Shown in pieces: positions 4,659-35,418 of a DNA stretch of 35,418 bases (positions are counted from its first letter, which is position 1; each line of letters starts with the position of its first letter). The stretch comes from Nitrospirota bacterium (GTDB lineage: Bacteria > Nitrospirota > Thermodesulfovibrionia > Thermodesulfovibrionales > UBA6898). The position numbers and the translations under genes are program-made. The stretch lies in the NCBI GenBank assembly GCA_021814065.1, contig JAKAIZ010000005.1, forward strand, positions 1-35,418, in the 5' to 3' direction. Below the pieces are notes generated by a model. That model searched no databases, was not told the DNA's origin, and worked only from the letters and a program-made list of their open reading frames with translations.

Positions 4659-7514
4659 CTACCTATAACTCCTGAGATATTTCCCGGTATACGACTTTTT
4701 CGACTTAACGATCTGGGCAGGGGTCCCCTCGAAGATAATCCTCCCCCCCTTGTCCCCGCCTTCCGGCCCGAGATCGATGATCGTGTCAGCGGCCCTTATC
4801 ACATCGAGGTTATGCTCTATCACGAGGACAGTATTGCCGTTATCGACCAGCCTGTCGAGCACGTCGAGAAGTGCCTGGACATCTGCGAAATGAAGCCCTA
4901 CCGTCGGCTCATCGAGGATATAAAGGAGCCCGCGCATCTTCGCCGATCCCATTTCGGCGCATATCTTGAGCCTCTGGGCCTCGCCGCCCGACAACGTGGT
5001 CGCAGGTTGCCCCAGCCTCAGATATCCGAGCCCGGTATCGACCATAAGCCCTAACTGTGCCCTGATCTTCGGGCGGTCGAAAAAGAAGTCATAGGCCTCC
5101 TCAACGGTCATATTCAGGACATCGCTTATATTTTTGTCCCGGTATCGTATCCGCAAGGCCTCCAGCCCGTACCGTTGGCCGTCGCACCTTTCGCACCGCA
5201 CATACAGGTCCTCGAAAAAATACATCTCCATCAGTTCGTACCCTTCGCCCTTGCAGGTCTCGCATCTGCCCCCCGGCACGTTGAAAGAGAAGAAACCCGG
5301 GCCGTAACCATAGGCCCTCGCCTCCCGCTGCTCGGAAAAAAGCTTCCTGATCTGATCGAATATCTTGAGATACGTGACCGGGTTGGATCGGGGGCTCCTT
5401 CCTATAGGCGACTGGTCGATCAGCTTCACTCCCTTCAGGTATGTATCGCCTTCGAGCCTGTCGAAAGGAAGGGGGGGCTCGTTTTCGGTTTTGAATCTCT
5501 TCGACAAAGCCCGATAAAGCGTCCCGACCACCAGGCTGCTCTTGCCCGATCCGGAAACGCCGGACACCACGGTAAGGGTCTGCAGCGGCACGTTGAGATC
5601 CACACCCTTCAGATTATTTCCCCTCGCGCCGGACAGAGACAAGGTCATTCCGGAGTCCCTGGGCGTCTGTCTCGTCACTCCGACCTTTTCTGCACCTCTC
5701 ATGTATCGCGCCGTAAGCGTGTCCGCCTTGAGAAATGCTTCTGCTGGACCTGAAAAAACAATCTCGCCTCCCCTATGCCCGCCTCCAGGGCCGAGTTCCA
5801 CAATCCATTCAGCCGCCTCGATCACCCACCTGTCGTGTTCGACCACGATCACTGTATTGCCGAGGTCCGCCAACTGCTTCATTATCCGGGCGATCCTCTC
5901 GGTGTCCCTCGCGTGAAGTCCGACGGTTGGTTCGTCGAGCACATAGAGCGTCCCTGTCAATAAGGACGCCAACTGGTTCGATAGGTTGATCCTCTGATAT
6001 TCACCTCCTGAAAGCGTCTTGCCGTACCGGTCAAGCGTGAGATAGTTGAGCCCGACCTTCTCGAGGAACTGAAGCTTCATGGATATCTGCCTCAGCAGTT
6101 CCTTCGCGATATCTCTCTTGAAAGGCGAAAGTTCTATCCCGGAAAAAAATTTTGCATTCTCCGATACCGACATCCGGCAGAGTTCGGCAATGTCGAGGCC
6201 GCCGATCTTGTAAGCAAGCGCCTCCCTGGTCAGTCTTTTCCCTCCGCATTCGGGACAGGTGAAGCCCCTCCGGTACCTGCTCAGGAAGACCCTTACATGA
6301 AGTTTGTATCTTCTGCCCTCCATGTCCTCGAAAAAATCGTCGATGCCGTAGAAACCTTCCCCCCCTTTGAATAAAAGCTTCTTCTCATCGGGAGTGAACT
6401 CCTCGTAAGGCTTGTGTATGTCGAGCCCGGCCTTTCTGCCCTTATCAAGGAGCTGTCTCCTCCACCACCGGTAGGCCGGCTTGTTCCAGGGATCTACTGC
6501 GCCCTTTGCGAGTGCAAGCGACTTGTCCGGTATGATCAGGTCCTCGTCATACAGCAGCGTGTTGCCGAAACCTTTACAGACGGGGCACGCGCCGACAGGA
6601 TGGTTGAAGGAAAAGAGAAGGGCCGTCGGAAGCGGTAGCTCAATTCCACACTCTTCACATTCGTTTCCGGAAGAGAAAGAAAGAACTGAATGAGGGGTGA
6701 GCGGTGAAACGTGAGGCGGTTGTTCTTCTTTGCTCCTGACTCCTGACTCCTGCCCCCTGACAATTATCACTTTTATTCCGCCCCGTCCCTCTTTCCAGGC
6801 CATCTCGACCGAGTCCCCCAGCCTCTGCGGATCTCTTATCACCAGTCTGTCGAGGACTATTTCCAGTGAAGGGTGAGACGTAAGGCGTGAGGCGTGAGGT
6901 GCAAGGGGTTGTTCTTTTCTCCTTACCCCTGACTCCTTACCCCTGACCTTTTCTTCATTGCTCCTCACATCTTCGATTTCTTGTATCTCGCCATCGACCC
7001 AGACCCTGTGAAACCCCCGCCTCTTGAGTTCCTCGGCTGATTCATTTGCAGTGAAAATGATCACCGCCTTCTGCCCCGAGTACTTCTCAAGAAGCTCCGC
7101 GACTACCTGTGCGGGGTCCCATTGTCTGATCTCCTTTCCGCAGTTCGGGCAATGAGGGGTCGATATCTTCGAATAGAGCAGCCGGAAAAGTTCATAAAGC
7201 TCCGTCAGAGTCCCGACAGTCGAGCGTGAACCGCGGACCGGGTTTTTTTGTTCGAGGGCAATCGCCGGCCTGATGTTGCGGATCGCATCCACATCGGGCC
7301 TGTCGAGTTTTTCGAGGAAGAGCCGGGCATAGGTGGAAAGGGACTCGATAAACCGCCACTGTCCCTCAGCAAAGATCGTGTCGAAGGCAAGTGACGACTT
7401 GCCGGAACCGGACACGCCGGTAATCGCGATCACCTTGTTGTGGGGAAGACTGAGGGTAATATTTTTGAGGTTGTTCTGCCTCGCGCCTTCAATAATAAGA
7501 TCCTTTTGGGACAT
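4659..7514 (-). CDS. uvrA: Excinuclease ABC subunit A (UvrA), with two in-frame heptamer-repeat inserts
   Basis: 951 aa; ITGVSGSGKSSLAFDTIFAEGQ, two ABC signatures (LSGGEYQRINLSNQL; LSGGEAQRLKICAEM), CPNCG/CETCKGEG zinc motifs, LDEPTVGLH twice. Confidence 0.97.
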   Translation of the reverse strand: MSQKDLIIEGARQNNLKNITLSLPHNKVIAITGVSGSGKSSLAFDTIFAEGQWRFIESLSTYARLFLEKLDRPDVDAIRNIRPAIALEQKNPVRGSRSTVGTLTELYELFRLLYSKISTPHCPNCGKEIRQWDPAQVVAELLEKYSGQKAVIIFTANESAEELKRRGFHRVWVDGEIQEIEDVRSNEEKVRGKESGVRRKEQPLAPHASRLTSHPSLEIVLDRLVIRDPQRLGDSVEMAWKEGRGGIKVIIVRGQESGVRSKEEQPPHVSPLTPHSVLSFSSGNECEECGIELPLPTALLFSFNHPVGACPVCKGFGNTLLYDEDLIIPDKSLALAKGAVDPWNKPAYRWWRRQLLDKGRKAGLDIHKPYEEFTPDEKKLLFKGGEGFYGIDDFFEDMEGRRYKLHVRVFLSRYRRGFTCPECGGKRLTREALAYKIGGLDIAELCRMSVSENAKFFSGIELSPFKRDIAKELLRQISMKLQFLEKVGLNYLTLDRYGKTLSGGEYQRINLSNQLASLLTGTLYVLDEPTVGLHARDTERIARIMKQLADLGNTVIVVEHDRWVIEAAEWIVELGPGGGHRGGEIVFSGPAEAFLKADTLTARYMRGAEKVGVTRQTPRDSGMTLSLSGARGNNLKGVDLNVPLQTLTVVSGVSGSGKSSLVVGTLYRALSKRFKTENEPPLPFDRLEGDTYLKGVKLIDQSPIGRSPRSNPVTYLKIFDQIRKLFSEQREARAYGYGPGFFSFNVPGGRCETCKGEGYELMEMYFFEDLYVRCERCDGQRYGLEALRIRYRDKNISDVLNMTVEEAYDFFFDRPKIRAQLGLMVDTGLGYLRLGQPATTLSGGEAQRLKICAEMGSAKMRGLLYILDEPTVGLHFADVQALLDVLDRLVDNGNTVLVIEHNLDVIRAADTIIDLGPEGGDKGGRIIFEGTPAQIVKSKKSYTGKYLRSYR
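6691..6761 (-). repeat. Composite heptanucleotide repeat element inside uvrA (copy 1)
   Basis: Minus strand: GTCAGGG GGCAGGA GTCAGGA GTCAGGA GCAAAGAAGAACAACC GCCTCAC GTTTCAC CGCTCAC CCCTCA. Confidence 0.85.
6865..6948 (-). repeat. Composite heptanucleotide repeat element inside uvrA (copy 2)
   Basis: Minus strand: GTCAGGG GTAAGGA GTCAGGG GTAAGGA GAAAAGAACAACC CCTTGCA CCTCACG CCTCACG CCTTACG TCTCACC CTTCACT. Confidence 0.85.
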
Positions 7515-7571
7515 CTTATTATTTTAGCACAGCGGTATTGTCACAAATGAAGCAACAGGCGGACCACGCGA

Positions 7572-9443
7572 CTAGATCCCTTTCCCTCCCATGATTTCGG
7601 ACTCTATTTTGGTTATCTTCTCCCGGGTCTGCGGGTCACCATCTCTTTTTAATGCGTATTGATATGCCTTGAGGGCATCTTCCTTTCTATTCATCGAATA
7701 GAAAATTTTACCAAGGGATATTAGAAATCGAGGATTCACCTTGTAACGCATTGCAAGTGTCGACGCAGAAGCGATCATCGTGTTGTAGACGGTATCGGTC
7801 GATAATCCATACTTGTCGATAAGCGCCAGGTTCTGAGGAACATTTCTCACGAATATCACGCTCAGCCGGTCGCAATAAACAGGGATCCATTTATCACCTT
7901 CCAGAAGCTTCAGCGTCAGCGGAAACAAGTCGCCATAAATACCCAAGGGGGCCATCACAATAAAATTGATTTTATAATGATTCAGCAGAATCTCCCAGAG
8001 AGGTTTATGAACTGACACGTGATTATTTTTCTCCGCGCCCTCGCCGTCCACGGCCGCCATCATAACCTCGTAGTCTTTCATAGCCTTGATATTCAGCGAT
8101 CTCGTGTCGACGAAGTTCTGTTTCCAGGGATAAAGTCTCCAGATCAGATAGCCTCCGTAACTACAGTCATTGAGCATGTTCCCTTCTATCCTGTTCGTCT
8201 CGATGAAGTCCGCAGCACCCTTGGGCACCGTTGTTCGCGTAGCGACCCCAAAACCAACGGTTGCATCCTTCATCATCCCCAGAACAAGAAGCAAAATTAG
8301 CATGGGCAAGACAAGCCCAATTCCCGATGCCCCTTTTTTCGCAAATAAGTGAGCCCGGCGCGTCTTAATCAAACCTTGAGCCACGATGTCGAATTCTTTT
8401 GCCATCAGCATCGTAAAGACGATTGCGTAAAAAAGTAAAAGGCGGAGAGATCGCGCGCCCATAATCGCCATCCCGGAGAGGAGCATCACGTGATTCAGAT
8501 CAAGTTTCCTGTTCCGCGCAGCAAGGATTATCGGAAAGGCAACCAATAGCACCGCATAATCGTAGACCCTAAAGTTACTGTAGTCCCAGATTTTATTCAT
8601 AAGAAAATACGAGGGGGACTGCCATTCCTGAGTATTTTCGAACAATATCTTATAATTGGGGAAAAAAGAGACGATAAATGCGCCCCATCCTGAAGGATTG
8701 ATTGAGGAAACAAGGACCGCGGCACCGGTCGTAATAAAAAAAATCTTTCCTTCCTTCTTCGTAAGGCTGCTTCTGTCCCGCAACATCTTTATCCCCTCTC
8801 CAGTCATGTATACGATCAGAGTAATATCTCCGATGATAAACCCGCCGTGCATGTTGGCCCAAACAAGCATGACCGGCACTATCCATAGAATTTTCTTCCC
8901 ACTGCCGTCCTTAAAGTCTTCAAGCAAAGACACGAGAAGCGACATGAAGAAGAAAGAAAAAAGGACAGGCCGTTCACCGCTGGCTATAGAGAGAACAACA
9001 AACAGGAGAAAAAGAAAGATAACAGATACAGGGAAGCTCGCGCCTGATCTGACCATCCGCCGGTAAACGATGGCCAAGGTGAGAACAAGAAGAAGAGACC
9101 GCAGAACGATCATCCCCTCCGGGCCGGCATGATCAAAGACCTCGTAAAAAATAGGCTGCGAAAGCACGTATTGCCCCAGCACAAAATGTTCCCAACGAGG
9201 CAAGAGGTTCTTGTTCTCCGGGAGACCTGAAGTAAAGGAAAAAGGGTCCTTATCCGGCGGATGACCGTGAGAGACGATATATTTTCCTGTTGCTGCATGG
9301 AACCAGAAGTCATAGTCCCACAAGTTTATCTTCAGGAAATAGATCAGAAACGAAGAAAAAAGAAGAACAACGATCGCAAGCTTTATTGCTTTATACAGCC
9401 TGGCTCCTTCGGGCAATGGCCCTTCTTGTTTCACAGAAACCAT
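7572..9443 (-). CDS. Large polytopic membrane protein, GT-C-like, with C-terminal TPR-like segment; function unknown
   Basis: 623 aa; many hydrophobic segments; first periplasmic loop NLWDYDFWFHAATGKYIVSHGHPPDKDPFSFTSG resembles GT-C-type membrane proteins; C-term SLGKIFYSMNRKEDALKAYQYALKRDGDPQTREKI is TPR-like. Confidence 0.7.
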   Translation of the reverse strand: MVSVKQEGPLPEGARLYKAIKLAIVVLLFSSFLIYFLKINLWDYDFWFHAATGKYIVSHGHPPDKDPFSFTSGLPENKNLLPRWEHFVLGQYVLSQPIFYEVFDHAGPEGMIVLRSLLLVLTLAIVYRRMVRSGASFPVSVIFLFLLFVVLSIASGERPVLFSFFFMSLLVSLLEDFKDGSGKKILWIVPVMLVWANMHGGFIIGDITLIVYMTGEGIKMLRDRSSLTKKEGKIFFITTGAAVLVSSINPSGWGAFIVSFFPNYKILFENTQEWQSPSYFLMNKIWDYSNFRVYDYAVLLVAFPIILAARNRKLDLNHVMLLSGMAIMGARSLRLLLFYAIVFTMLMAKEFDIVAQGLIKTRRAHLFAKKGASGIGLVLPMLILLLVLGMMKDATVGFGVATRTTVPKGAADFIETNRIEGNMLNDCSYGGYLIWRLYPWKQNFVDTRSLNIKAMKDYEVMMAAVDGEGAEKNNHVSVHKPLWEILLNHYKINFIVMAPLGIYGDLFPLTLKLLEGDKWIPVYCDRLSVIFVRNVPQNLALIDKYGLSTDTVYNTMIASASTLAMRYKVNPRFLISLGKIFYSMNRKEDALKAYQYALKRDGDPQTREKITKIESEIMGGKGI

Positions 9444-9473
9444 CCGTTAGTCCTCCGCCGTTATCGTACGCAA

Positions 9474-9947
9474 TCAGAAGTTCCTGTTGTTGTTGCAGTC
9501 GATGGCAAAGATATCATCCGCGACCCTCGTACCCGCCTTGCCGGTGGCGACGGCAGTGAAACAATTACCGGAATCTTGTGTAACCGGGGGATTGGCGACA
9601 GGAGTAACGATACTTCTGTTTAATCTTAATTCATAATTAAAAACAGTGTCGTTGCCCGGCTTGAATGCGGGAAGAAATGCCTTGATAGCAGCAAGACCCG
9701 TATAAGTATTTTTTGTAGGAAGAGCAGGGCAGACCGGGGGGGGACCGCCGGCCAAGGGCTCGTAACAGCTCCATTCCGCAAAAAACTGCTCTTCCACAAG
9801 TCTCAAATTCTGCAGATTCGAGTATGCCTCAGCCCTTGCCGCATTTCGTTGCTGGCCGATATAGGCCGGAATGGCAATAGCCGAGAGGATGCCGATGATG
9901 GCGATCGTAATAAGCAGCTCGATCAGTGTAAACCCCTTCTTACTCAT
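9474..9947 (-). CDS. Type IV pilin-like protein (prepilin)
   Basis: 157 aa; MSKKGFTLIELLITIAIIGILSAIAIPAYIGQQRNAARAEAYSNLQNLR: class III prepilin leader and N-terminal helix; preceded by an AAAGGAGG-type RBS on the minus strand. Confidence 0.95.
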   Translation of the reverse strand: MSKKGFTLIELLITIAIIGILSAIAIPAYIGQQRNAARAEAYSNLQNLRLVEEQFFAEWSCYEPLAGGPPPVCPALPTKNTYTGLAAIKAFLPAFKPGNDTVFNYELRLNRSIVTPVANPPVTQDSGNCFTAVATGKAGTRVADDIFAIDCNNNRNF

Positions 9948-9970
9948 GTTTGACCTCCTTTATAATTGCC

Positions 9971-10618
9971 TTAAGCCTTTAAAAGTGAAATGACCCATAA
10001 ACCAAATGTCGCTACAAAAAAAAGCAGACCATAAAGTGCCGATCTTTTTCTCAGTTTTCCGGTATGGTCGAATGCCTTCCATATGGTATATAAAACGGAC
10101 AATATCCAGCCGAAGAAGCTCGTCTCCACAAGTATAGACCAAACAGGATCAGGAGCCCGGTCGACCTTCATCACGTAAAGCAACTTTTTCTTTTCGGCCT
10201 CCGACTCTTCGGGCTTCAGGGAACCTTCTTTCACCAGCATCTGAACATCGAGGGCCGCTATCTTGTCGTCACACCTGGCGATCCATTCCTTCCCCGGCGT
10301 ATAGAGACTTCTGGACGCATAGAAAGAGCTCCTGATCGAAGAATATGCGAGGATCGCCCAATCGGGCTTGTCGGCCTTTTCAAACATTTCGCCAATCTGC
10401 CACAACCTTTCCGCCGATTTACCCACATAAGGAGAACCGGGGAAATAAAAGTGAAGTGCAGCATCATATTCCCTTATCGCCAATTTCCAGTTCGAAGCTG
10501 CGTAATATTTCTCCGCTGCCGTAAAATGGGATCGCTCCATATACAGGACCTTGGCGCCTGTCAAAAAGAGAAAAACAATGATGAAAAGCAGCCCCTTAAC
10601 CAGATATCTCTTTAACAT
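9971..10618 (-). CDS. Uncharacterised membrane protein with TPR-like central region
   Basis: ORF 9971..10645; likely start MLKRYLVKGLLFIIVFLFL at 10618; N-terminal TM, helical repeat-like AAEKYYAASNWKLAIREYDAALHFYFPGSPYVGKSAERLWQIGEMFEKADKPDWAILAYSSIRSS, C-terminal TMs. Confidence 0.65.
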   Translation of the reverse strand: MLKRYLVKGLLFIIVFLFLTGAKVLYMERSHFTAAEKYYAASNWKLAIREYDAALHFYFPGSPYVGKSAERLWQIGEMFEKADKPDWAILAYSSIRSSFYASRSLYTPGKEWIARCDDKIAALDVQMLVKEGSLKPEESEAEKKKLLYVMKVDRAPDPVWSILVETSFFGWILSVLYTIWKAFDHTGKLRKRSALYGLLFFVATFGLWVISLLKA

Positions 10619-11360
10619 ACTTTTTCCGAAATAATGTCCTGGCAACAGCGCCTGATAAGCGTTCTATCCTCAATCTCCACGGAAGGATTGCCGCCTCTCG
10701 TACAATGCGTTTCGACATCTTCGAAGAGCCGTAATTCCTTTCATAAAAAATAATCGGCATCTCATGGACCTTGAAGCCGGCTGCATCGACGCGATATGCC
10801 ATCTCGATCTGAAATGAGTAGCCGGTCGAATGCACCCCGTCGAGATCTATCGCCTGAAGGGCCTGCACACTATAACACCTGAAGCCGCTCGTCATGTCGG
10901 TAAGCCCGAGTCCCAGCAACAGGGAAGCATATAAATTGCCGCATTTTGACAGCAGAAGCCGCCTGAAGTCCCAGCCGACCACGCTTATTGATCCATTCAT
11001 ATATCTGGAACCGATCAGAAGACCAACGCCTTCTTCTATCTCCTTGATAAACCAGGGGAGCGCATCCGGGTTATGCGACCCGTCGGCATCCATCTCAATA
11101 AAATAGCGGAACCCACGCTGAATACCCCATTTAAAGCCCGTGATGTACGCGGTGCCGAGACCGAGTTTAGAAGGCCGCTCTATGAGAGAGACCCGATCGG
11201 TCGAGGAGATGATTTCCTTTACCCACTCAGGGGTCCCGTCCGTGGAGGCATCATCGACGACAAGAACATGAAATCCGTCATGTTTCAGAACAGCTTGAAC
11301 CATCTTGGGTAGACTGAGACGTTCATTCACCGTCGGGATGACGACTAGGTATTTTTCCAT
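10596..11360 (-). CDS. Family 2 glycosyltransferase, polyprenyl-phosphate mannose synthase (Dpm1)-like
   Basis: MEKYLVVIPTVNERLSLPKMVQAVLKHDGFHVLVVDDASTDGTPEWV...FIEMDADGSHNPDALPWFIKEIEEGVGLLIGSRYMNGS...DMTSGFRCYS: Dpm1-type GT2. ATG at 11360; the ORF track starts at an upstream TTG. Confidence 0.88.
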   Translation of the reverse strand: MEKYLVVIPTVNERLSLPKMVQAVLKHDGFHVLVVDDASTDGTPEWVKEIISSTDRVSLIERPSKLGLGTAYITGFKWGIQRGFRYFIEMDADGSHNPDALPWFIKEIEEGVGLLIGSRYMNGSISVVGWDFRRLLLSKCGNLYASLLLGLGLTDMTSGFRCYSVQALQAIDLDGVHSTGYSFQIEMAYRVDAAGFKVHEMPIIFYERNYGSSKMSKRIVREAAILPWRLRIERLSGAVARTLFRKKYVKEISG

Positions 11361-11371
11361 GGATGTACTCA

Positions 11372-11380
11372 ATTATAGCA
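11372..11380 (-). promoter_or_regulatory. Extended -10 promoter candidate (TGCTATAAT) upstream of the GT2 gene
   Basis: Minus strand ...GCTTGCTATAATTGAGTACATCCATG; the -10 lies 11 nt before the ATG. Confidence 0.4.
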
Positions 11381-11633
11381 AGCAGCATGCCTAAATGAAA
11401 GCACTCATCCCAGCCCTTCCCCGAGAGGATGATACCTCTAAGGACCGTTATTCCTCGGAAAGACGCGGGCCTAATGATCGGCCGACTATCTCAAGGAAAT
11501 CCACAGGAGACATCCTGCCAAATTTTGGCAATGAGAGGCGCGGAATGTCCCGGCAGCGATTATGGCCGTCAAACACCGGGATAGCCGATAACTCACACCA
11601 CTCGATCCGACCAGCACTAATTCTGCGTTTTCT

Positions 11634-12704
11634 CTACTCCCGAGAGATGTCGCAAATCGCAGCCCAAAACTCGTCGACCCTCCCACTCCAGTCGAATTCC
11701 TCTGCATAACGCAGGCAGTTGCGGCTCATCTCTTCGTACTTCACCCTGTCGCTTAGCAGTTCGATCGTCCTCACCGCCGCCTCTTCGGCTGCGCCTACCA
11801 GATATCCCGTCACTGCCTCCTGGATGGCGTCTTTAATCCCGTGGACCGAATAGCCGACAGCGGGAGTGCCGGCAGCGGCGGCCTCCACAATATTGATCCC
11901 GAAGCCTTCCCTCACCCCCGGGACGAGGAGTATATGGGACCTGCGGAGCAGTTCGTATTTTTTTTCTTCCTGCACCCAGCCAAAAAAAGTAACCCCTTCC
12001 AGATCCTTCGCCATTTCCTTCAGCCGCATTTCCTCAGGCCCCCTGCCGATAAGCCAGAGTCTGCACCCGGGGAACTGCTGTCTGACCCTGGAGTATATCT
12101 TCAGGGCATCCTCGGGTCTCTTCGTACTTTTCAACCTCCCGAGAAAAACCAGTGTCATGTCGCGTTCCTTTTCCGTCACTTCAGGAAGGGTGGGATGTTC
12201 AAGGCCGACCATGACGACAGAGATCCGTTGAAAGCCCAAATTTTCGAGATCCCCCTTCGTCGATGGGGAAATCGTGATCGTCGGCTTTCGCTTGTAGAGG
12301 GAAAGGATCAGCGGCTCGATAAGATAAGGAATCCAGCCGAACAGGCCGAATTCCCTGAGCCAGAATTCCCTGTAGAGCTGGTAGATAAGAAGAACAGAGT
12401 TCCGTAAAAAAAAAGTAAGAAACCCGATCCCATTGAATTCGTCAACGATACGGTCGAAGCGCTTCCTATTTCTGATAGCGTAATAGAACCCGATGAGATG
12501 CACAGTGGCCTCGTTTCCCCTCCGAATATAGGTAACGCCGTCAAACGCTTCTTCCCGGGTGCAGCCAGGAAAGCTGCTCGCAAACACCGACACCTCGCAT
12601 CCGTATTTTTCCGTGAGTCCGCGCGCGATCTCATGTGTATAGACTTCGGCGCCCCCTCCTGCGGGATTGAGGATGTCCCTACGATTGAGGATCAGGATCT
12701 TCAT
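11634..12704 (-). CDS. Glycosyltransferase family 4 (GT-B)
   Basis: Likely start MKILILNRRDILNPAGGGAEVYTHEIARGL at 12704 (ATGA overlap with the upstream stop); FLGRLKSTKRPEDALKIYSRV...LVPGVREGFGINIVEAAAAGTPAVGY. Confidence 0.92.
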   Translation of the reverse strand: MKILILNRRDILNPAGGGAEVYTHEIARGLTEKYGCEVSVFASSFPGCTREEAFDGVTYIRRGNEATVHLIGFYYAIRNRKRFDRIVDEFNGIGFLTFFLRNSVLLIYQLYREFWLREFGLFGWIPYLIEPLILSLYKRKPTITISPSTKGDLENLGFQRISVVMVGLEHPTLPEVTEKERDMTLVFLGRLKSTKRPEDALKIYSRVRQQFPGCRLWLIGRGPEEMRLKEMAKDLEGVTFFGWVQEEKKYELLRRSHILLVPGVREGFGINIVEAAAAGTPAVGYSVHGIKDAIQEAVTGYLVGAAEEAAVRTIELLSDRVKYEEMSRNCLRYAEEFDWSGRVDEFWAAICDISRE

Positions 12705-13843: not shown

Positions 13844-13884
13844 TTCGCCCGGGAATTTATTCTTTCACGAGATTTCGGCATGGC

Positions 13885-17809: not shown

Positions 17810-17851
17810 TTGACTCCTCCCGGGCTTTTCTTAAACGACAGGCCAGGCGTG

Positions 17852-18904: not shown

Positions 18905-18913
18905 GCCAGGGCC

Positions 18914-21767: not shown

Positions 21768-21800
21768 TTAAGACATTTTTCTTAAAACAAGAAATTCTTC

Positions 21801-23850: not shown

Positions 23851-23915
23851 GAATTCTTCCTCCCTTTACCGTCTCGGTCGCCGGCTCCTTCAGCCGACAG
23901 CGGCATGATTATGCT

Positions 23916-24542: not shown

Positions 24543-24576
24543 GAGCCCTCCCGTGTGTTGAATCTTCTCGCTGCTT

Positions 24577-26495: not shown

Positions 26496-26498
26496 AAA

Positions 26499-27497
26499 CT
26501 ATTTGAACTCCGCACCTTCGAGCACACTACGAAGCTCGCCAATCGCCATCCAGCGATCGTTACTATCACTGCTATAAGCGAAATCCTCCCCTACAAAAGG
26601 ATATGATTTGTACTTTACGTAACGCAGCGCGTCCGCGGCCTCAAACGGAGACAGTATCACAAATTTGTCGCCCGTATCAATTGTAGTTCTCGCCTCATCC
26701 TTTGCGATAAGGGTCTCGTGCAACTTCTCGCCCGGCCGTATGCCAACAACCCGCACAGCGCAATCCGGGCACAACGCCTCAACAAGATCTCTGATTCGCA
26801 TGCTCGGAATCTTTGGGATGAATATTTCTCCGCCCACGCTGTCAGCGAGCGCTTGACTCACCAGCGCTACTCCTTCGCTCAGCGTCAGCCAAAATCTCGT
26901 CATCCTCATATCTGTAACAGGCAATTCCTTCGCCCCATTTGCAAGAAGTTGAAGAAAATATGGAATGACGCTTCCCCGGCTTCCTATGACATTTCCATAC
27001 CTCACCATGGAAAACCTCGTCTGGTGCGCCCCCGCATATGCATTCGCGGCAATGAATATCTTCTCCATTGCAAGTTTCGTGGCACCGTAAAGGTTGACCG
27101 GGGTCACCGCTTTATCAGTGGATAACGCTATGACTTTCTTTACATTTCTGTCTATGGCCACATCTACTATATTGCCGGCGCCTATAATATTTGTCTTTAC
27201 CGCTTCCAACGGATTGTATTCAAGCGCCGGGACCTGTTTCAGTGCCGCAGCATGTATGACGTAGTCTACGCCGTCAAAGGCCCTTGTGAGCCGGTCCTTG
27301 TCCCTAATGTCCCCCAGGAAGAATCTGATCGGGTACTTCTCCGGAGAAAATGTCTTTGACATTTCAAACTGTTTGAATTCGTCCCGGCTGAAGATAATGA
27401 GCTTCTTGGGGGAGAAATCGCTGAAAAGCATCTGGCTGAATTTCTTCCCGAAGGATCCTGTGCCGCCTGTTATAAGAATTACTTTGTCGTCAAACAT
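26499..27497 (-). CDS. pseB: UDP-N-acetylglucosamine 4,6-dehydratase (inverting) PseB
   Basis: 332 aa; MFDDKVILITGGTGSFGKKFSQMLFSDFSPKKLIIFSRDEFKQFEMSKTF; DGVDYVIHAAALKQVPALEYNPLEAVKTNIIGAGNIVDVAIDRNVKKVIALSTDKAVTPVNLYGATKLAMEKIF. Confidence 0.95.
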   Translation of the reverse strand: MFDDKVILITGGTGSFGKKFSQMLFSDFSPKKLIIFSRDEFKQFEMSKTFSPEKYPIRFFLGDIRDKDRLTRAFDGVDYVIHAAALKQVPALEYNPLEAVKTNIIGAGNIVDVAIDRNVKKVIALSTDKAVTPVNLYGATKLAMEKIFIAANAYAGAHQTRFSMVRYGNVIGSRGSVIPYFLQLLANGAKELPVTDMRMTRFWLTLSEGVALVSQALADSVGGEIFIPKIPSMRIRDLVEALCPDCAVRVVGIRPGEKLHETLIAKDEARTTIDTGDKFVILSPFEAADALRYVKYKSYPFVGEDFAYSSDSNDRWMAIGELRSVLEGAEFK

Positions 27498-27527
27498 GTC
27501 ATCTCCTGACAGCCAATCCTGTAAGAT

Positions 27528-27536
27528 ATTATATCA
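27528..27536 (-). promoter_or_regulatory. Extended -10 promoter candidate (TGATATAAT) upstream of pseB
   Basis: Minus strand ...GAGTTCTGATATAATATCTTACAGG...GGAGATGACATG; only substantial gap upstream of the pse block. Confidence 0.5.
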
Positions 27537-27552
27537 GAACTCATTATGCAAA

Positions 27553-27575
27553 AAAGCCGACAATGCCGCAGGAAC
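27553..27575 (-). terminator. Weak rho-independent terminator candidate for the B12-binding radical SAM gene
   Basis: Minus strand AGCCG-ttcctgcggcattgt-CGGCT followed by a T-run, between the radical SAM stop and the pseB promoter; only 5-bp outer stem. Confidence 0.35.
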
Positions 27576-27592
27576 GGCTGGTCTTCCGGGGC

Positions 27593-29071
27593 TTATTCAA
27601 ACATCCTGACTTTCCCCTCGCTGCGCTTCGTCAATGCGCGAAGCTTGTATTCTTTTCTGCCGGTCAGCGCGCGGACAATCTTCTGGATGCCACGCAGAAA
27701 GGTAAGGCCATACCCGTAAAGCTTCACATATAACATAAGATCTCTCACTGCGTGACGAAGCGGCGACAGGGGATTTCGAAGAAGAACATGCCGCTTCATC
27801 TCCTTTTCGGCATCTCGTTTGACCGTCAACAGCTCTTCGTCGGACATATTCGAGAAATTCACGAGAAGCTTTTCCGATTGCTCAGAGTATGACTCTATTA
27901 ATGCAATCTCGTCGACAATCTTTCCCGTCCGAAGGCCGTAATCATACAGCTCAGTCCCGGGATAGGGAGTCGCGATAAAGAGGGACGGCGCCCTGCCGGC
28001 CCACTTTGCCAGCTCAACAGTATCCCTGACAGTTCCCCTGTCCTCTCCAACATTGCCCGTCATGAGAGAAAACTCATAGTCTATGCCAACTCTTCTGCAC
28101 AGCTCCAATGCCTTCCTGTTTTGCTCCACCGTTACTCTCTTCCTGATATTATCAAGAATCTTCTGGCTACCGCTTTCCACCCCAAACGACAACAGTATGC
28201 ACCCAGCCGATTTCATCCGTTTCAGAAGGTCTTCATCGACAAGGTTGACCCTGGCGCTGACGTTCCACTTCTTCTTGATTTTCAACTCTTCCAGTAAATC
28301 GCAAAACTCTATTACTCTGCTCCGGCTGGAGATGAAAAGGTCGTCGGCCCACGTAAAGATATCGAATGTATATCTCCTCATGGCATTCTCGACTTCGGAT
28401 ATCATTCTTTCCGGCGAATGATATCTGACCTTCATACCCTGGAATGCGTGATAGCAATATGTGCATTTATAGGGACATCCCCTCGATGAAACCCCTAAAG
28501 TCAAAGACTTTTTCCCAAAACGATATCCGCCGCCCAGCATATAAAGCTCCGCATCGAAAAGGTAATACGCAGGAAACGGTATGGTATCCAAGTCTTCTAT
28601 TGTTTCTCGGGGAGGGTTCTTTACAATTACCCCATTCTTCCAGTACGCTATCCCCCGTATATCAGCCCACTCCTTGTCAGCGGCAAGTTCTTTAGCGGTA
28701 ATCTCCCCCTCCCCTATTACCACAACATCCGCACCGGTATTCTTAAGGAAAAGCTCGGGAATCGTTGAGGCGACTGAATTGCCGACCCACACAGGGATAT
28801 CGGGGTATATTCTCTTTATGCCTTCGATAAGTGCTCGAACGTATCGGAAAGTCGTTATGATCGACCCAATACCTATGGCGTCATACCTTCCTCTCGAACG
28901 AATAAGGCCGAGCGCATCACCAAAAGCAAGGCTGTGAAGATTCAGATCAAGGATATCGACCTTGTGGCCTTCTGCCACCAAAACAGAAGCAAGGTAGGCA
29001 AGCCCAATGTTGTATACTTCCGGCATTCTTTTGGAGCCGCACACCGGACTTATCAACAAGATGTTTTTCAT
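27593..29071 (-). CDS. B12-binding-domain radical SAM protein
   Basis: 492 aa; N-terminal B12-binding-like domain KNILLISPVCGSKRMPEVYNIGLAYLASVLVAEGHKVDILDLN; GVSSRGCPYKCTYCYHAFQGMKVRYHSP; FGVESGSQKILDNIRK. Confidence 0.93.
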   Translation of the reverse strand: MKNILLISPVCGSKRMPEVYNIGLAYLASVLVAEGHKVDILDLNLHSLAFGDALGLIRSRGRYDAIGIGSIITTFRYVRALIEGIKRIYPDIPVWVGNSVASTIPELFLKNTGADVVVIGEGEITAKELAADKEWADIRGIAYWKNGVIVKNPPRETIEDLDTIPFPAYYLFDAELYMLGGGYRFGKKSLTLGVSSRGCPYKCTYCYHAFQGMKVRYHSPERMISEVENAMRRYTFDIFTWADDLFISSRSRVIEFCDLLEELKIKKKWNVSARVNLVDEDLLKRMKSAGCILLSFGVESGSQKILDNIRKRVTVEQNRKALELCRRVGIDYEFSLMTGNVGEDRGTVRDTVELAKWAGRAPSLFIATPYPGTELYDYGLRTGKIVDEIALIESYSEQSEKLLVNFSNMSDEELLTVKRDAEKEMKRHVLLRNPLSPLRHAVRDLMLYVKLYGYGLTFLRGIQKIVRALTGRKEYKLRALTKRSEGKVRMFE

Positions 29072-29164
29072 GGATCCCTTCTTCTGTCATACAATAGTAA
29101 AAGCAAGGAAAATCACCCCCACCTTTTCCCCTGAAATTTTGCAGGCAAAGACACAGCAGCCATC

Positions 29165-30724
29165 TCAGTTGCTGTTCTCCTTACCAATCATGAACAGCCT
29201 GCGCACCATTTCCATTCTTAACCCCGTCTTTCTTGAGATGGCTTCAAGCATTACGATATCCTCTTGGTCAAGGCTTTTCGTAAGAACCAAGGAAATTATA
29301 TATCCTACTATAAACAAGATAAGATACAAAGGCAAAACCAGCGAACTTAGTGGCAGGATCTTTGCGATTCCGTATAAAAATAGCCCGATAATAGAGGAAC
29401 TCAGTATCGGCTTGATGTAGTTCACGGTAAAGGGATGGATTCCGCTGATCCTGTAAAGGATGAAAGACATGACGGAGTTGAGCCCAAAGTATGATATTAG
29501 CGTGGCTAATGCAGCCCCGTTGATTCCCATTCCCAAATGTTTAATAAAGACATAATTGAGCATCAGGTTAAGTAACGTCCCATATATTGAAATATTCATG
29601 AGATCTTTCGATCTGCCCATAATGATCATCAAAACGCCATTTGCTCCCAGAAATGCATGAAAAAGAAGAGCTGCGGACAGGATGCGGAGAGAGGTAGCGG
29701 CACCCACAAAACGTTCGCCGAAAAAAAAAGTAATAGTCATCTCCGGAAAGAAGAAAAGAATAAAAAAAATCGGCAAGGTAGCCGCAAATATCCATTTTGT
29801 AAGCACCTTGTAGGTATCTCCTATTTCGAGAAGACGTCCTTTCGCGTATAAATCGCCGGCAACTGGCAAGTAGGCAAATTCCAATGCTCCAATAGGAAAC
29901 GTAAGGAGTTTTGCAAGAGAAACGCTGACGTTATAAACGCCGACATCTTCCGCAAGTGCATATCTGCCGAGTATTATAGTATCACTCCATGTCAGCACAA
30001 AGCCCAGCATATTAGCAATCAGTAGCGGGGCTGAAAATCTCATTAGTTCCCTGACAAGGCTGCTGTCCTCCGTTTCTAACCGCCGTGGGAACCCTATCCT
30101 TTTCTCATAGGTCATACATAGCAGTATCAAAACCACGAGCATCGCTGCCACATAGGAGTAAAGGATGAAGGGGAAGGGCAATCGGAAAAAAAAGACACAG
30201 CCGAGGGAAAAAAGAAAAAAAAGGGGTTGCCCTATATCCAGCAGATAAACTCTTGGAGATATCACGTTATGCCCCCTAAGTATTCCCCCCAAGATATTTG
30301 CCGTAACAGAGAAAAGAACAAAGAGTGACATTATTCTCAGCAAAGGAGCAAGTTCGGGCTTATAAAAAATCTTTTGAGCGGCAATTCCTGCCGTAAGAAA
30401 GAGGACAAGAGAAAGAAAAGAACCGGAAAGAAGACCCGCTTTTATCGCCGACGCAGATATGGACAATGCAGCATTTCTCTTTTTCCCACCCAAAAAAACT
30501 GCGACGAAGCGGGAAACGCCGTCCTGAATCCCTATTCCCCCAAGTGCAGTAAATATGCCGCCGATCGACACCGCAACCGAATAAAAGCCTAATTCCGCTA
30601 TCGATGTGTTTCTTATTATCAAGATCCTTGTCGAAAACCAGACTAGGGTGCTGATCACCATACCCATGAACACCACGGTCGTGCCTTTGACCGTATCTTT
30701 GAGAGATGCCCCTGTTTCAGACAT
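29165..30724 (-). CDS. Polysaccharide flippase (Wzx-like, MATE/MOP superfamily)
   Basis: 519 aa; about 12-14 hydrophobic segments; TTVVFMGMVISTLVWFSTRILIIRNTSIAELGFYSVAVSIGGIFTALGGIGIQDGVSRFV. Confidence 0.92.
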   Translation of the reverse strand: MSETGASLKDTVKGTTVVFMGMVISTLVWFSTRILIIRNTSIAELGFYSVAVSIGGIFTALGGIGIQDGVSRFVAVFLGGKKRNAALSISASAIKAGLLSGSFLSLVLFLTAGIAAQKIFYKPELAPLLRIMSLFVLFSVTANILGGILRGHNVISPRVYLLDIGQPLFFLFSLGCVFFFRLPFPFILYSYVAAMLVVLILLCMTYEKRIGFPRRLETEDSSLVRELMRFSAPLLIANMLGFVLTWSDTIILGRYALAEDVGVYNVSVSLAKLLTFPIGALEFAYLPVAGDLYAKGRLLEIGDTYKVLTKWIFAATLPIFFILFFFPEMTITFFFGERFVGAATSLRILSAALLFHAFLGANGVLMIIMGRSKDLMNISIYGTLLNLMLNYVFIKHLGMGINGAALATLISYFGLNSVMSFILYRISGIHPFTVNYIKPILSSSIIGLFLYGIAKILPLSSLVLPLYLILFIVGYIISLVLTKSLDQEDIVMLEAISRKTGLRMEMVRRLFMIGKENSN

Positions 30725-30792
30725 GTTGTTTCAAATCACAGAGTGTTCCAATATCCTGCAACGCACCCCTCTCCCTTCCAAAACAGTCCATC

Positions 30793-32841
30793 CTATTCTC
30801 TGTCGCGAATGACCGCAATGGCCCTTTCTTCGAGTGACTTCGCGAACTTACCTCTTTCACCGCCGGCGGTCTTGAGCTTCCCGAGCAGCGAAAGCGCCTC
30901 CCGCTCCCTTCCGTCTTTCAAAAGGAACTCCGTATAAGGCCACAACAATTTCTCGGGATGAGCGATCAAAAAAGCGCGTGCGTAAAGTAAATTCCCCTCA
31001 GTCTCAAGGCCGTCGCGCTTCAAGAAATCAGCGCACACGAGGGTATTCATCCCGTACTGTGTCAAGAGTTCCTCTACCAGGAAATCATTCGCGGGGAAGA
31101 CCTCCATCGCATGCTCATACCCCGTCTTCCCGTAGTTCGCCATGAAACGTTTTCGGACCTCCGCCTCGAATCGATTAACGCTTGTCGCATCCATGTTCTT
31201 TGGGTACAACGCAACGGAAAAAATATATGGGTAATACCTGTAATAATTCGAAACCGTCTCCGTTAATCCATAAGCGTTAGTCGAAAAAAACTTTCCCTTG
31301 CCCGCAAAATCTTTGTTTATCTCTTTCACCGAACTATTGAGCCGGCTGTAAAAAACGGGGTAGAGATACTCGTATTTCCACCTAGGGGAACTTTCCATAC
31401 CATAGACGTCTTTTTTGCCGGCGGTATCGATAACCAGAACATCCTCCCTCAGTCTTTCCACTGCCCTCATATAAAAGGTAATAAACATTGCGTTATCGCT
31501 ATAGTTAAGCAACAGGCTCTGTACGGGCAGCACAGAAAGCATGTCCCTGCCGTAGTCATACGCAATCGGGGCTTTATCGGCATCTGTCATTCGATATGAA
31601 TAGGGAAACAGCACAAGCGGAAGCGCAACGAGAGCGTATTGCGCTACAGTGAAAAGCAGGCGGTACGGGGTCTTCTTGATCACATCCAAAACCCATGCAA
31701 AGCCGACTGAAATCAGGCAGTAGAGTATGGGGATGGCAGGAAGAAAATATACCGACATTACCTCCACATTCTCGTGCCTAAGGTCTCTTACCCCCCAAAC
31801 CATTTTCCCGAGCAGCACGAACCAGATAAGAAATGCGAAAATAAAGTAAAAAAACACCACCCGCTTTTTACACAAGCCGACAAGCCCCGCAAGAAGAAAA
31901 AAGAAAATTGGCCTCGTCGTAGAAAAGGCTATATAGAGCAGACTGTTTTTCACAGCATAATACCATGATTTTCCAAAAGAAAGGGCATGAGCAAGCGCAT
32001 TGGCTGTTGATGACCCACTATAGGCCTGTCTTAGGATGACTCTCATGAAATCCTTCCAAGAACCCGCATACGAATAGACGATAAGCCCCCCTGAGTGGTC
32101 CATAGCGACTGATCTGAGGTAAAGGAGAAGATTTACGGAAAATCCCAGCAAAAAGGAAATGATACCAAGTGGTATCCATTTCAACCTTACCTCTTTCCAG
32201 CAAACCGCAAGCGGAAACAGAAAGACCAGCCCCATGAACCCAATCGTATGCTGGTTTCCCATCCCCAAGCCGATGATAAAGAATCCGACTAAAGCATGCT
32301 TCAGGAGATTGCCGCCGTTCAGTATTCTCAGCCCGAGATAAAAAACAATCATTGCAAGGGCACTGTTCAGGACATAAGCCTCTGCCTTCAGCGCTTCGGA
32401 AAAAAAAGCCGGAGAAATACAGCAAATTCCCGTAGACGCCAACGATGCGTACATATTGTGGGTAAGCGCCATCGAAACCTTGTACACCGCAAAGCACGCA
32501 ACCGTCGCCGACAAGGCACCGACAAGATTAGTTTTCATCGCTATGTTTCCGAACGGCAGGAATGTCAGAAGCTTGCCGAGCAACACAAATAGCGGGTAGC
32601 CCGGGGGATGGGTAGAGCCGAGGGAAAAAGAGGCCGCGGTGAAGAGGCTGCTGTCTCCCGCGTAAATCGAAGAACAAAGGCTGATAAGATTAACAAGAAA
32701 TATAGTGGCTATCAGAAAAAAATCATCTGCCGGGAAGGAGCGCAATAAACGCGGATGAGAAGAAGACACGTTCTTTGACTCTTGAAAACTCAAACCGTTG
32801 TCAGTCCGCAGAAATGATCTTCCCGTAAACAAACTGACCAC
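30793..32841 (-). CDS. DUF2723-like polytopic membrane protein (GT-C-like)
   Basis: 682 aa as called; AGDSSLFTAASFSLGSTHPPGYPLFVLLGKLLTFLPFGNIAMKTNLVGALSA; many TMs; the true start may be a downstream TTG (about 32790) that avoids overlap with the pilin gene. Confidence 0.85.
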   Translation of the reverse strand: MVSLFTGRSFLRTDNGLSFQESKNVSSSHPRLLRSFPADDFFLIATIFLVNLISLCSSIYAGDSSLFTAASFSLGSTHPPGYPLFVLLGKLLTFLPFGNIAMKTNLVGALSATVACFAVYKVSMALTHNMYASLASTGICCISPAFFSEALKAEAYVLNSALAMIVFYLGLRILNGGNLLKHALVGFFIIGLGMGNQHTIGFMGLVFLFPLAVCWKEVRLKWIPLGIISFLLGFSVNLLLYLRSVAMDHSGGLIVYSYAGSWKDFMRVILRQAYSGSSTANALAHALSFGKSWYYAVKNSLLYIAFSTTRPIFFFLLAGLVGLCKKRVVFFYFIFAFLIWFVLLGKMVWGVRDLRHENVEVMSVYFLPAIPILYCLISVGFAWVLDVIKKTPYRLLFTVAQYALVALPLVLFPYSYRMTDADKAPIAYDYGRDMLSVLPVQSLLLNYSDNAMFITFYMRAVERLREDVLVIDTAGKKDVYGMESSPRWKYEYLYPVFYSRLNSSVKEINKDFAGKGKFFSTNAYGLTETVSNYYRYYPYIFSVALYPKNMDATSVNRFEAEVRKRFMANYGKTGYEHAMEVFPANDFLVEELLTQYGMNTLVCADFLKRDGLETEGNLLYARAFLIAHPEKLLWPYTEFLLKDGREREALSLLGKLKTAGGERGKFAKSLEERAIAVIRDRE

Positions 32842-33295
32842 GGCCGTCTGCGGCAGACATTATAATGGCCGTTATGGTGCTGTCGTCGGCCGGGGCGGCC
32901 GAGAGGCTGATCTGTCCCCGACCTGGGACAGCAGCAGCAACCCACAGGACTCCGCCCCACGGCGATTTCTCGCCGGCAGCGTTTCTGGCACTGACAAATG
33001 TGCTGACCACGCCGTTTGAGGCGAGCGTATTGTTGTCGTCCGGTCCTACCGATCCGTTCCAGTCGCTATCTACTTCAACGAGGGTCCCCTGCGGGGTACC
33101 CGCCTTTTTTGCCGCATTGAGCCAACCTTGCAGTTCCGGTTCAGAAGAAGTGGCGGTCCTCTGGATGGTCCCTTTTCTGGCCCTGTCTTGCATGCCGATG
33201 TAGCCCGGGATAGCGATGGCAGCCAGGATGCCGATGATCGCTACGACGATCAGAAGTTCGATAAGAGTGAAGCCCGCGGATTTTTCTAACTTCAT
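32801..33295 (-). CDS. Type IV pilin-like protein, paralog of the next gene
   Basis: Start MKLEKSAGFTLIELLIVVAIIGILAAIAIPGYIGMQDRARKG at 33295 with an AAGGAGCC RBS; class III prepilin leader. Confidence 0.94.
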   Translation of the reverse strand: MKLEKSAGFTLIELLIVVAIIGILAAIAIPGYIGMQDRARKGTIQRTATSSEPELQGWLNAAKKAGTPQGTLVEVDSDWNGSVGPDDNNTLASNGVVSTFVSARNAAGEKSPWGGVLWVAAAVPGRGQISLSAAPADDSTITAIIMSAADGRGQFVYGKIISAD

Positions 33296-33345
33296 TATTA
33301 AGGCTCCTTGCCTCTTCAATATCAAGATGGTTCCTTCGCCGCCCG

Positions 33346-33386
33346 TGGAAAGGGACGAACACATTATGAGCGTCCGTCCCTTTCCA
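33346..33386. other. Intergenic stem-loop between the two pilin genes (12-bp perfect stem)
   Basis: TGGAAAGGGACG (33346-33357) / CGTCCCTTTCCA (33375-33386), 17-nt loop; no U-tract after it on the minus strand. Confidence 0.75.
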
Positions 33387-33397
33387 TCAATCAGGCA

Positions 33398-33916
33398 TCA
33401 GTCTGCAGAAAGCGTTTTCGTATAGAGGAAATTGGCTTTACCGTCATAGACAGACATAACAATCGCAGAAACCGTACTGTCATCTGCAGGGGAAGCGGAA
33501 AGCGTAATCGTGCCGTTATGCGATCCTCCTCCATTAGTGTCGTCAACCCATAGGTTTCCGCCCCACGGCGATTTCTCTCCGGAACCGTTTCTGCCAGTTA
33601 CAAATGTGTTGACCACGCCGTTCGAGGCGAGCGTATTGTTGTCGTCCGGTCCTACCGAACCGTTCCAGTCGCTATCTACTTCAACGAGGGTACCCTGCGG
33701 GGTCCCCGCCTTCTTCGCCGCCGTCATCCATGCGGTCAGCTCCGGCTCGGACGAGGTCGCAGTCCTCTGGATCGCGCCTTTCCTGCCCCTTTCCTGCATG
33801 CCGATGTAGCCCGGGATGGCGATGGCAGCAAGGATACCGATGATTGCCACAACGATCAGAAGCTCGATAAGGGTAAAACCTTTTTGCTCCTTAAGATTAT
33901 TGACTGCCTTGTACAT
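33398..33916 (-). CDS. Type IV pilin-like protein (probably the promoter-proximal, major copy)
   Basis: MYKAVNNLKEQKGFTLIELLIVVAIIGILAAIAIPGYIGMQERGRKG; strong RBS AAAGGAGGTTTGATT before ATG at 33916. Confidence 0.95.
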   Translation of the reverse strand: MYKAVNNLKEQKGFTLIELLIVVAIIGILAAIAIPGYIGMQERGRKGAIQRTATSSEPELTAWMTAAKKAGTPQGTLVEVDSDWNGSVGPDDNNTLASNGVVNTFVTGRNGSGEKSPWGGNLWVDDTNGGGSHNGTITLSASPADDSTVSAIVMSVYDGKANFLYTKTLSAD

Positions 33917-34026
33917 AATCAAACCTCCTTTTGATTGTTACGACCAAAGGTCGATAAATACCCCGCCAAAAGTACCCTGAATTATCACCTCCTCAAAATA
34001 ATTAAAGAAACCTATGACGTTCAAAG

Positions 34027-34042
34027 AGCACTTTTTATGCCA
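34027..34042 (-). promoter_or_regulatory. Candidate sigma-54 (RpoN) -24/-12 promoter upstream of the pilin pair
   Basis: Minus strand TGGCATAAAAAGTGCT; GG and GC separated by exactly 10 nt (consensus TGGCAC-N5-TTGCW). Confidence 0.6.
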
Positions 34043-34248
34043 GATTCTCAGCTTTTAAACCACTGAATTATCGCACATAAAATATTCCTTAAAGACGATA
34101 AAAGTCAAGATGGATGACATTATTTGTCATAATAGCAGGGTAGATGGCGCATATTTTAGTACTATCCTGCCTTTGGGTCTATTTTTCTGCCCTTGCTGGA
34201 GGAAACGACAAATATCGACCGTCTATGGAATACAATAGGAGAAATCTG

Positions 34249-34257
34249 TGGTATAAT
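34249..34257 (+). promoter_or_regulatory. Extended -10 promoter candidate (TGGTATAAT) upstream of the ASKHA gene
   Basis: AATCTGTGGTATAATTTTCC; about 38 nt before ATG at 34295. Confidence 0.45.
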
Positions 34258-34294
34258 TTTCCAAAAATTAAATGTACTTTCTCTATAATAGAAG

Positions 34295-35418
34295 ATGAAT
34301 TTTATCGGCCTCGACGCGGGATCAGTAAGTGTCAAGCTTGTTTCCCTCGATAATGGTGGTAATAGGCGTCATAGCGTATATCAGAGACATAAAGGGCAGC
34401 CCCTGGCTGTAGCACTCCAACTTCTGAAAGAAGCGCTAGGTGTTGAGAGTGAGGAGTCAGGAGCCACTCCCCTCGCGCCTCGCGCCTCACGCCTCACCCC
34501 TCAATTTTCGCTTTCTTTAACCGGTTCGGCAGGCAGGCTGATCGGATCTGTTCTCGGCCTTGAACCGGTCAACGAAGTCGTTGCATATGCATATGCCACA
34601 TGCAGGCTCTATCCCGATATCAGGACCATCATCGAGCTTGGCGGCGAGGACTCGAAGCTCATTATGCTCGGAGAGGGTCCCGGCGCCGCAAAAGATTTCT
34701 CGATGAACTCCGTCTGCGCGGCCGGCACCGGCTCGTTCCTGGACCAGCAGGCCGAAAGGCTGAGGCTTACGATAGAAGAATTCAGCAAATTATGCCTAAA
34801 ATCGAAGAACCCTCCCCGCATCGCAGGAAGATGCAGCGTCTTTGCTAAGTCCGACATGATCCATCTTCAGCAGATCGCCAGCCCGGTGGAAGACATCGTT
34901 GCAGGGCTCTGCTTTGCGGTTGCCCGGAACTTTAAGGGCTCAATCGCGCGCGGCAGGGAGATAAAATCTCCTGTCTCTTTCCAGGGCGGGGTGGCGGCAA
35001 ACGCCGGCATGGTCAGGGCATTCAAAGAGATCTTCGGCCTCGATGAACTCTTTGTGCCGGAAGAGCATGCCCTCATGGGAGCCTTCGGAGCGGCAATGAA
35101 GAACCTCGATTCCGGGGCGAAACAGACGTTCGATCTGAAGAAACTGGAGGTCTTCATCAATTCGACAAGGACTGCGGAAAAAGGTCATATCCCTCTCCTC
35201 GGAGAGGGGGACCGGTTCTCTGAAAGACACCTTAAAAAAAGTGAGGAGACAGGAGTAAGGAGTCAGGAGTCACCCCCCTCACGCCTCTCGCCTCACACTT
35301 CACGTGTGAAAGCCTATCTCGGTATCGATATAGGTTCGATCAGCACGAATCTCGCGGTCATCGATGAAGACTGCAGACTGATGGCAAAGCGTTATCTCAT
35401 GACCGCCGGCAGGCCGAT
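34295..35418 (+). CDS. Acyl-CoA dehydratase activator-like ATPase (BcrAD/BadFG/HgdC ASKHA family), tandem-domain, 3' end beyond the window
   Basis: Hand-translated open frame to the window end: MNFIGLDAGSVSVKLVSLDNGG...SLTGSAGRLIGSVLG...ELGGEDSKLIML...MNSVCAAGTGSFLDQQAERL...FQGGVAANAGMVRAFKEIFG...AYLGIDIGSISTNLAVIDEDCRLMAKRYLMTAGRP. Missing from the ORF track because it is edge-truncated. Confidence 0.92.
   Translation, partial: MNFIGLDAGSVSVKLVSLDNGGNRRHSVYQRHKGQPLAVALQLLKEALGVESEESGATPLAPRASRLTPQFSLSLTGSAGRLIGSVLGLEPVNEVVAYAYATCRLYPDIRTIIELGGEDSKLIMLGEGPGAAKDFSMNSVCAAGTGSFLDQQAERLRLTIEEFSKLCLKSKNPPRIAGRCSVFAKSDMIHLQQIASPVEDIVAGLCFAVARNFKGSIARGREIKSPVSFQGGVAANAGMVRAFKEIFGLDELFVPEEHALMGAFGAAMKNLDSGAKQTFDLKKLEVFINSTRTAEKGHIPLLGEGDRFSERHLKKSEETGVRSQESPPSRLSPHTSRVKAYLGIDIGSISTNLAVIDEDCRLMAKRYLMTAGRP
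34449..34503 (+). repeat. Composite heptanucleotide repeat element in the ASKHA gene (copy 3)
   Basis: GTGAGGA GTCAGGA GCCACTCCCCTCGC GCCTCGC GCCTCAC GCCTCAC CCCTCA. Confidence 0.85.
35241..35305 (+). repeat. Composite heptanucleotide repeat element in the ASKHA gene (copy 4)
   Basis: GTGAGGA GACAGGA GTAAGGA GTCAGGA GTCACCCCC CTCACGC CTCTCGC CTCACAC TTCACGTG. Confidence 0.85.

Follow-up and report, generated by a model that had tools for sequence, protein, structure and literature searches.

The closest described systems to the elements reported here are the GGGAATC heptamers of Xanthomonas and the GGGGAYT heptamers of Nostoc, which occur at hundreds of sites, 70-75 of them with two convergent arrays (PMC4692102). 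They share with our elements degenerate 7-nt units, convergent pairs, fixed positions with length and sequence variation between relatives and a lack of linked mobile elements, but they use another unit, are about 90% intergenic and carry four G-tracts suited to quadruplexes (PMC4692102). Empty sites or dialect replacement (a change of heptamer sequence at a retained site) inside essential genes, both of which are present here, were not found in the text of that study (PMC4692102). Rickettsia palindromic elements (reviewed in PMC10969869) are likewise palindromic, dispersed and carried in frame by conserved genes as tolerated peptides, but they are about 150 bp long with a conserved family sequence (PMC10969869), whereas the elements described here are tandem heptamer arrays that differ by site and species and fold weakly. 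Beggiatoaceae TAACTGA repeats (PMC4679880) and cyanobacterial STRRs resemble them as heptamer arrays of patchy distribution; unlike ours, the Beggiatoaceae repeats have one fixed unit, form 169 direct sets and one indirect set and lie mostly just upstream of start codons (PMC4679880). An earlier note on this DNA had likened its repeats to the Rickettsia elements for their behavior and to cyanobacterial STRRs for their heptamer composition, and both likenesses held.

The GGACCGG x4 elements of Geobacter metallireducens, with 49 copies inside and between genes, share the heptamer units and the genic and intergenic placement (PMC2700814). They are described as single direct arrays and putative regulatory RNA, and the text found reports neither convergent layout nor turnover (PMC2700814). 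Mammalian interstitial telomeric sequences are also short-unit arrays at internal sites with empty orthologous loci, mostly without duplication, but these are single arrays of a telomerase-written hexamer in eukaryotes (PMC2246262). REP/REPIN sequences with RAYT have a fixed stem tagged by a GTAG/CGTC-type tetranucleotide, whereas no constant stem is present here and the arms are variable heptamers. The unit found here, GTNNNRN (mainly GTNAGGN), matches none of GGGAATC, GGGGAYT, TAACTGA or GGACCGG. No description of these elements in Nitrospirota was found in the literature searched, a partial coverage with most subscription journals outside it. What is demonstrated here is convergent heptamer elements with presence/absence and sequence replacement between congeners.

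Heptamer arrays in the window and the host genome

The window, which is the whole 35,418-nt stretch of DNA analysed, is one contig of a Nitrospirota metagenome assembly (3.33 Mb, 271 contigs). Four copies of a composite heptamer element had been reported from it, and all four were found where they had been placed and with the described layout. Each is carried in frame by an open reading frame, two in uvrA and two in a BadF/BadG-type ATPase gene (Table 1). The 7-bp arrays were recovered independently by Tandem Repeats Finder. Three shuffled versions of the window gave no paired arrays, and their single runs scored 8.6-14.8 vs 14-28 for the real arms. No Rfam model matched within the window. The earlier note had also suggested that the element could fold as a hairpin. 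Folded as DNA, the four copies had z-scores of +1.7, -0.9, -2.7 and -0.4, and with a clear excess over shuffles in only one of four the hairpin was rejected as a selected structure.

Table 1. Positions of the features discussed in the text, in the window unless another sequence is named.
Feature	Sequence	Position	Strand	Description
uvrA	window	4659..7514	-	hosts copies A and B
uvrA copy B	window	6691..6761	-	coding strand: (GTCAGGA-type)n, spacer GCAAAGAAGAACAACC, (NCCTCAC-type)n
uvrA copy A	window	6865..6948	-	insert of 84 bp (12 x 7 nt, 28 codons); missing from G001
Copy A flank	window	6949..6973	-	one unit and spacer-like sequence, coding strand GTGAGGAGCAATGAAGAA; conserved in G001
BcrAD_BadFG ATPase open frame	window	34292..35416	+	ends at contig end; hosts two copies
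ATPase-gene copy 1	window	34449..34503	+	BadF/BadG/BcrA/BcrD-type ATPase; right arm exceeds that in G001 by 30 nt
ATPase-gene copy 2	window	35241..35305	+	same BadF/BadG/BcrA/BcrD-type ATPase gene; length equal in G001
Type IV pilin-like genes	window	32801-33922 and 9474-9947		three genes
Period-9 array, example	G170 L349	5749-5839		from the set L347-L366
Period-9 array, example	G170 L352	14473-14625		from the set L347-L366
Concentric arms	G170 L361	1115-1287		
Concentric arms	G170 L361	11514-11742		
Concentric arms	G170 L361	12680-12930		

The host genome yielded about 25 array elements in three fuzzy pattern searches. At least 14 of the 26 arrays listed were genic, the remainder being intergenic, at gene ends or unclear, so the mostly intergenic distribution with random orientation that the earlier note had named as evidence against its reading was not what the genome held. 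The genic copies lie in uvrA (2), the ATPase gene (2), purL (3, on two contigs), ddl, a sugar epimerase gene, holB, uvrC, prmC, dapF and carA. As a separate observation, purL by itself has three or four distinct heptamer arrays, each of them in frame (C14:9350; C54:475 and 706 [L076, L063]; G001 L291:3033).

In each element, two arrays of a single heptamer family converge on a spacer, with (GTNNNRN)n before it and (NYNNNAC)n after it, mainly (GTNAGGN)n ... (NCCTNAC)n; array lengths are 30-150 nt. Both arms of the intergenic copies were built from the same unit, GT(G/A)AGGN, with position 3 occupied by 25 G, 18 A, 7 C and 4 T, and in three genomes the arms within one element were more alike than shuffled partners. 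The uvrA copies were confirmed to share a spacer core: the non-heptamer spacer GGAGCAAAGAAGAA, with variants, was present in uvrA copies A and B and also in C207 and in the uvrC element of the sister genome G001, and a related stretch, GTGAGGAGCAATGAAGAA, lies in the copy A flank. Linkers and a centre also recurred among clustered copies in the genome G170. The sharing of these non-heptamer spacers indicates that the elements have spread, in part at least, by being copied whole; most spacers, however, differ between elements, which fits poorly with simple copying.

Frame and stop codons in genic copies

Position 3 of the left arms differed between genic copies (25 C/T vs 16 A/G) and intergenic copies (2 vs 18; p = 2e-4). 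Genic left arms are shifted to GTC because GTG or GTA at this place would give TGA or TAA on the coding strand. What the earlier note had described as two halves is thus a single unit family modified by stop avoidance. That note had further described the element as free of stops in any frame, which is true for pure GTCAGGA and GCCTCAC units but fails for the real copies, which also carry GTAAGG/GTGAGG; three of the four (those starting at 6865, 34449 and 35241) contain stops in other frames. Of the TNA triplets in array units, none of the 19 in frame was a stop, as compared to 16 of 43 out of frame that had A/G as the middle base (p = 1.4e-4).

Length showed the same constraint. Genic arrays differed between host and G001 by 84, 30, 39, -9, 3, -60, -15, 3 or 0 nt, and all non-zero differences (8/8) were multiples of three (p = 1.5e-4), whereas the intergenic differences included -10, 122, 1 and 31. 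The arrays that survive in genes have only multiple-of-three lengths without in-frame TGA or TAA, and genic copies are under strong purifying selection for frame and readability.

The GTCAGGA half does always stand 5', as had been noted, but this is trivial: the layout is palindromic, (GTN5)n...(N5AC)n reads GT-first on either strand, and GT-first therefore carries no orientation. The special co-orientation and frame-keeping claimed for the element is accounted for by palindromic layout plus selection and is not an element property. Of the adjacent opposite-type arrays classified in four genomes, 20 pairs were GT-first and just one had the reverse order, and this one is the gap between the neighboring uvrA elements in the window.

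Turnover between congeners and spread across Nitrospirota

The uvrA locus was compared by blastn between the host and G001, a congener whose UvrA protein is 94-96% identical. Copy B was found in G001 at equal length. Copy A met a clean empty site with flanks about 88% identical, reading AATGAAGAA up to the junction and CTGGATATC after it, which bears out the proposed in-frame entry of a dispersed element into genes. No target-site duplication, a criterion for MITEs, was seen at this site in the G001 comparison. As the copy A edges share microhomology of just 1 nt, copy A was probably inserted in the host and not precisely deleted from G001. The flanking unit and spacer-like sequence could possibly be the relic of an older element. 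The intergenic copy C214:9644-9763 was also missing in G001. This makes two clean empty sites between the genomes, a number so low that polarity rests on weak outgroup evidence. Close relatives thus differ by discrete presence or absence of elements.

Elsewhere the arrays stayed in place but changed in length and in heptamer sequence. Several orthologous sites kept an array in G001 in which the heptamer sequence was replaced, the G001 dialects being GTTTTGA/GGAACTT in ddl, GTTCTGA in holB, TTTGAAC in prmC, GCTCAAA in dapF, ATTCACT at the nusB-adjacent site and TTCACGC at C192; dialect replacement was also found at C66:3603. The uvrA loop that carries copy A varied in the same way among more relatives: G010 has a GTNATGN element there, G050 has arrays with a TCAGC core, G007 has one TCGAAAC array, and several other genomes lack an array at this place. 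A different palindromic repeat occupies the uvrA loop in G039 (L134) and G013 (L117), where it encodes PPIPPLVKGGKGG / LPTSPPGKGGKKG.

Period counts were made with N masked. In G001 (389 kb) there were 26-27 arrays of period 7 and nine of period 14, while every other period from 4 to 15 gave 0 or 1; shuffled G001 sequence gave no arrays. Period-7 arrays numbered 45 in G170 and 29 in G286 as compared to one in the array-poor control G154. A dialect-neutral pattern run across 296 Nitrospirota genomes returned from 0 to more than 200 matches per genome, and the distribution was very patchy even inside families. G170 also carried a second dispersed family of period 9, (GGTTTGTTT)n facing (AACCAAACA)n, with 49 arrays in 400 kb (examples in Table 1). 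All 16 adjacent pairs of this family were inverted and GT-first, the same convergent layout as for period 7. The same genome contained concentric arms of different heptamer dialects (A-B-B'-A'), which form a cluster within a few kb; their linkers, GGAAGACGGGGAG, are mirrored and their centre, TTGGCCGGAAACGCTGAAA, is conserved.

Origin of the arrays and candidate machinery

These sequences are probably dispersed elements, non-coding and self-complementary, that each combine two convergent degenerate-heptamer arrays and are gained, rewritten in place and filtered by selection in genes. An element copy, or a burst of heptamer addition, would enter at a break or permissive site, and the arrays would then alter through slippage and through the formation of new arrays in the middle of old ones. 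Genic copies would persist only where they encode a tolerated loop, and the peptides VRSQESG and ASRLTPH would have no function of their own. If this is right, heptamer arrays are a class of dispersed palindromic elements that patchily fill genomes across a phylum and not inert microsatellites; from one congener to another their sequence would change while their positions stay fixed, and they would lengthen the same loops of essential proteins time and again. It would also account for the low-complexity peptides, VRSQESG and ASRLTPH among them, in the predicted proteins of these bacteria, and would make the host and G001 a tractable system for how such arrays arise.

The conserved positions at most sites would also fit old elements altered by slippage alone. 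Among the alternatives we rank slippage first, followed by telomere-like healing and then Y1-mediated movement. In a model of slippage only, chance-seeded heptamer microsatellites would grow by polymerase slippage and template switching at a quasi-palindrome would write the opposite arm, with no mobile step. The variation of 30, 39 and 60 nt at shared sites fits such growth, as does the copy A flank, which already has GTGAGGA and a spacer-like stretch, and slippage favored at 7 nt has been proposed earlier (Mrazek, as cited in PMC4679880 and PMC4692102). We nevertheless consider slippage alone unlikely. It does not sit well with an 84-bp two-armed insert where the congener site is empty, with spacers and linkers common to several copies or with the G010 uvrA element, in which the arms are not unit-by-unit copies of each other, and the inverted period-9 family of G170 is not predicted by a fixed 7-nt polymerase footprint.

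Quite improbable, in our judgment, is healing of the kind seen at telomeres, in which a template-carrying polymerase would extend both 3' ends of a double-strand break with the same unit before joining, leaving facing GT-first arms whose hairpin centres could be re-broken and rewritten in a new dialect. Constant polarity, the absence of target-site duplication, dialect replacement at fixed sites, the concentric arms of G170 and the occurrence of period 9 alongside 7 all agree with it, and precedents exist in mammalian telomeric repeats inserted at breaks (PMC2246262) and in DRT10, a bacterial reverse transcriptase that writes tandem repeats (PMC12632851). Shared spacers, on the other hand, suggest whole-element copying. 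RVT_1 (PF00078) was not detected in the array-rich, nearly complete genomes G167, G175, G165, G152 and G279, where a divergent reverse transcriptase could escape PF00078, and Ku was missing from most of the array-rich, nearly complete genomes checked. Neither RVT_1, as defined by PF00078, nor Ku thus appears to be required. The broader proposal is a long shot: short-period DNA (7 or 9 nt, with switchable dialects) would be written by a bacterial system on broken or hairpin ends, telomere-like but internal, so that convergent arrays are repeatedly broken and rewritten in place, essential genes included.

Mobilization by a Y1 (HUH) transposase, as for REP/REPIN-like or IS200/IS605-like non-autonomous elements, appears very improbable. 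The elements are short, palindromic and free of target-site duplication, and Y1_Tnp was found in the host, in G001 and, in an informal comparison of genomes hand-picked within families from the pattern scan, in 27 of 32 array-rich as compared to 18 of 34 array-poor genomes. However, Y1_Tnp was missing from the array-rich genomes G084 (100% complete), G230, G239, G272 and G112 and abundant in the array-poor G018, G019, G020 and G154, and the arms are tandem heptamers with no constant stem and no apparent tag tetranucleotide. The Y1 transposase thus appears not to be required in spite of its enrichment. The earlier note had recommended a search for a linked recombinase or transposase. No linked enzyme and no required recombinase was found: some array-rich, nearly complete genomes lack Y1 transposase, some lack RVT_1 and some lack Ku.

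That the arrays are ancestral functional protein segments (the VRSQESG/ASRLTPH peptides) is almost certainly wrong and was rejected, since despite always being open in frame and being retained in several copies by both congeners, the same arrays also occur between genes, their dialect and length differ between congeners and the uvrA loop of relatives has different arrays or none.

Two further observations were made. Ten viral contigs in IMG/VR (L387-L396) carry at least three full tandem GTCAGGA units by exact match. The type IV pilin-like genes of the window (Table 1) include two tandem near-duplicates and have the usual FTLIELLI N-terminus.
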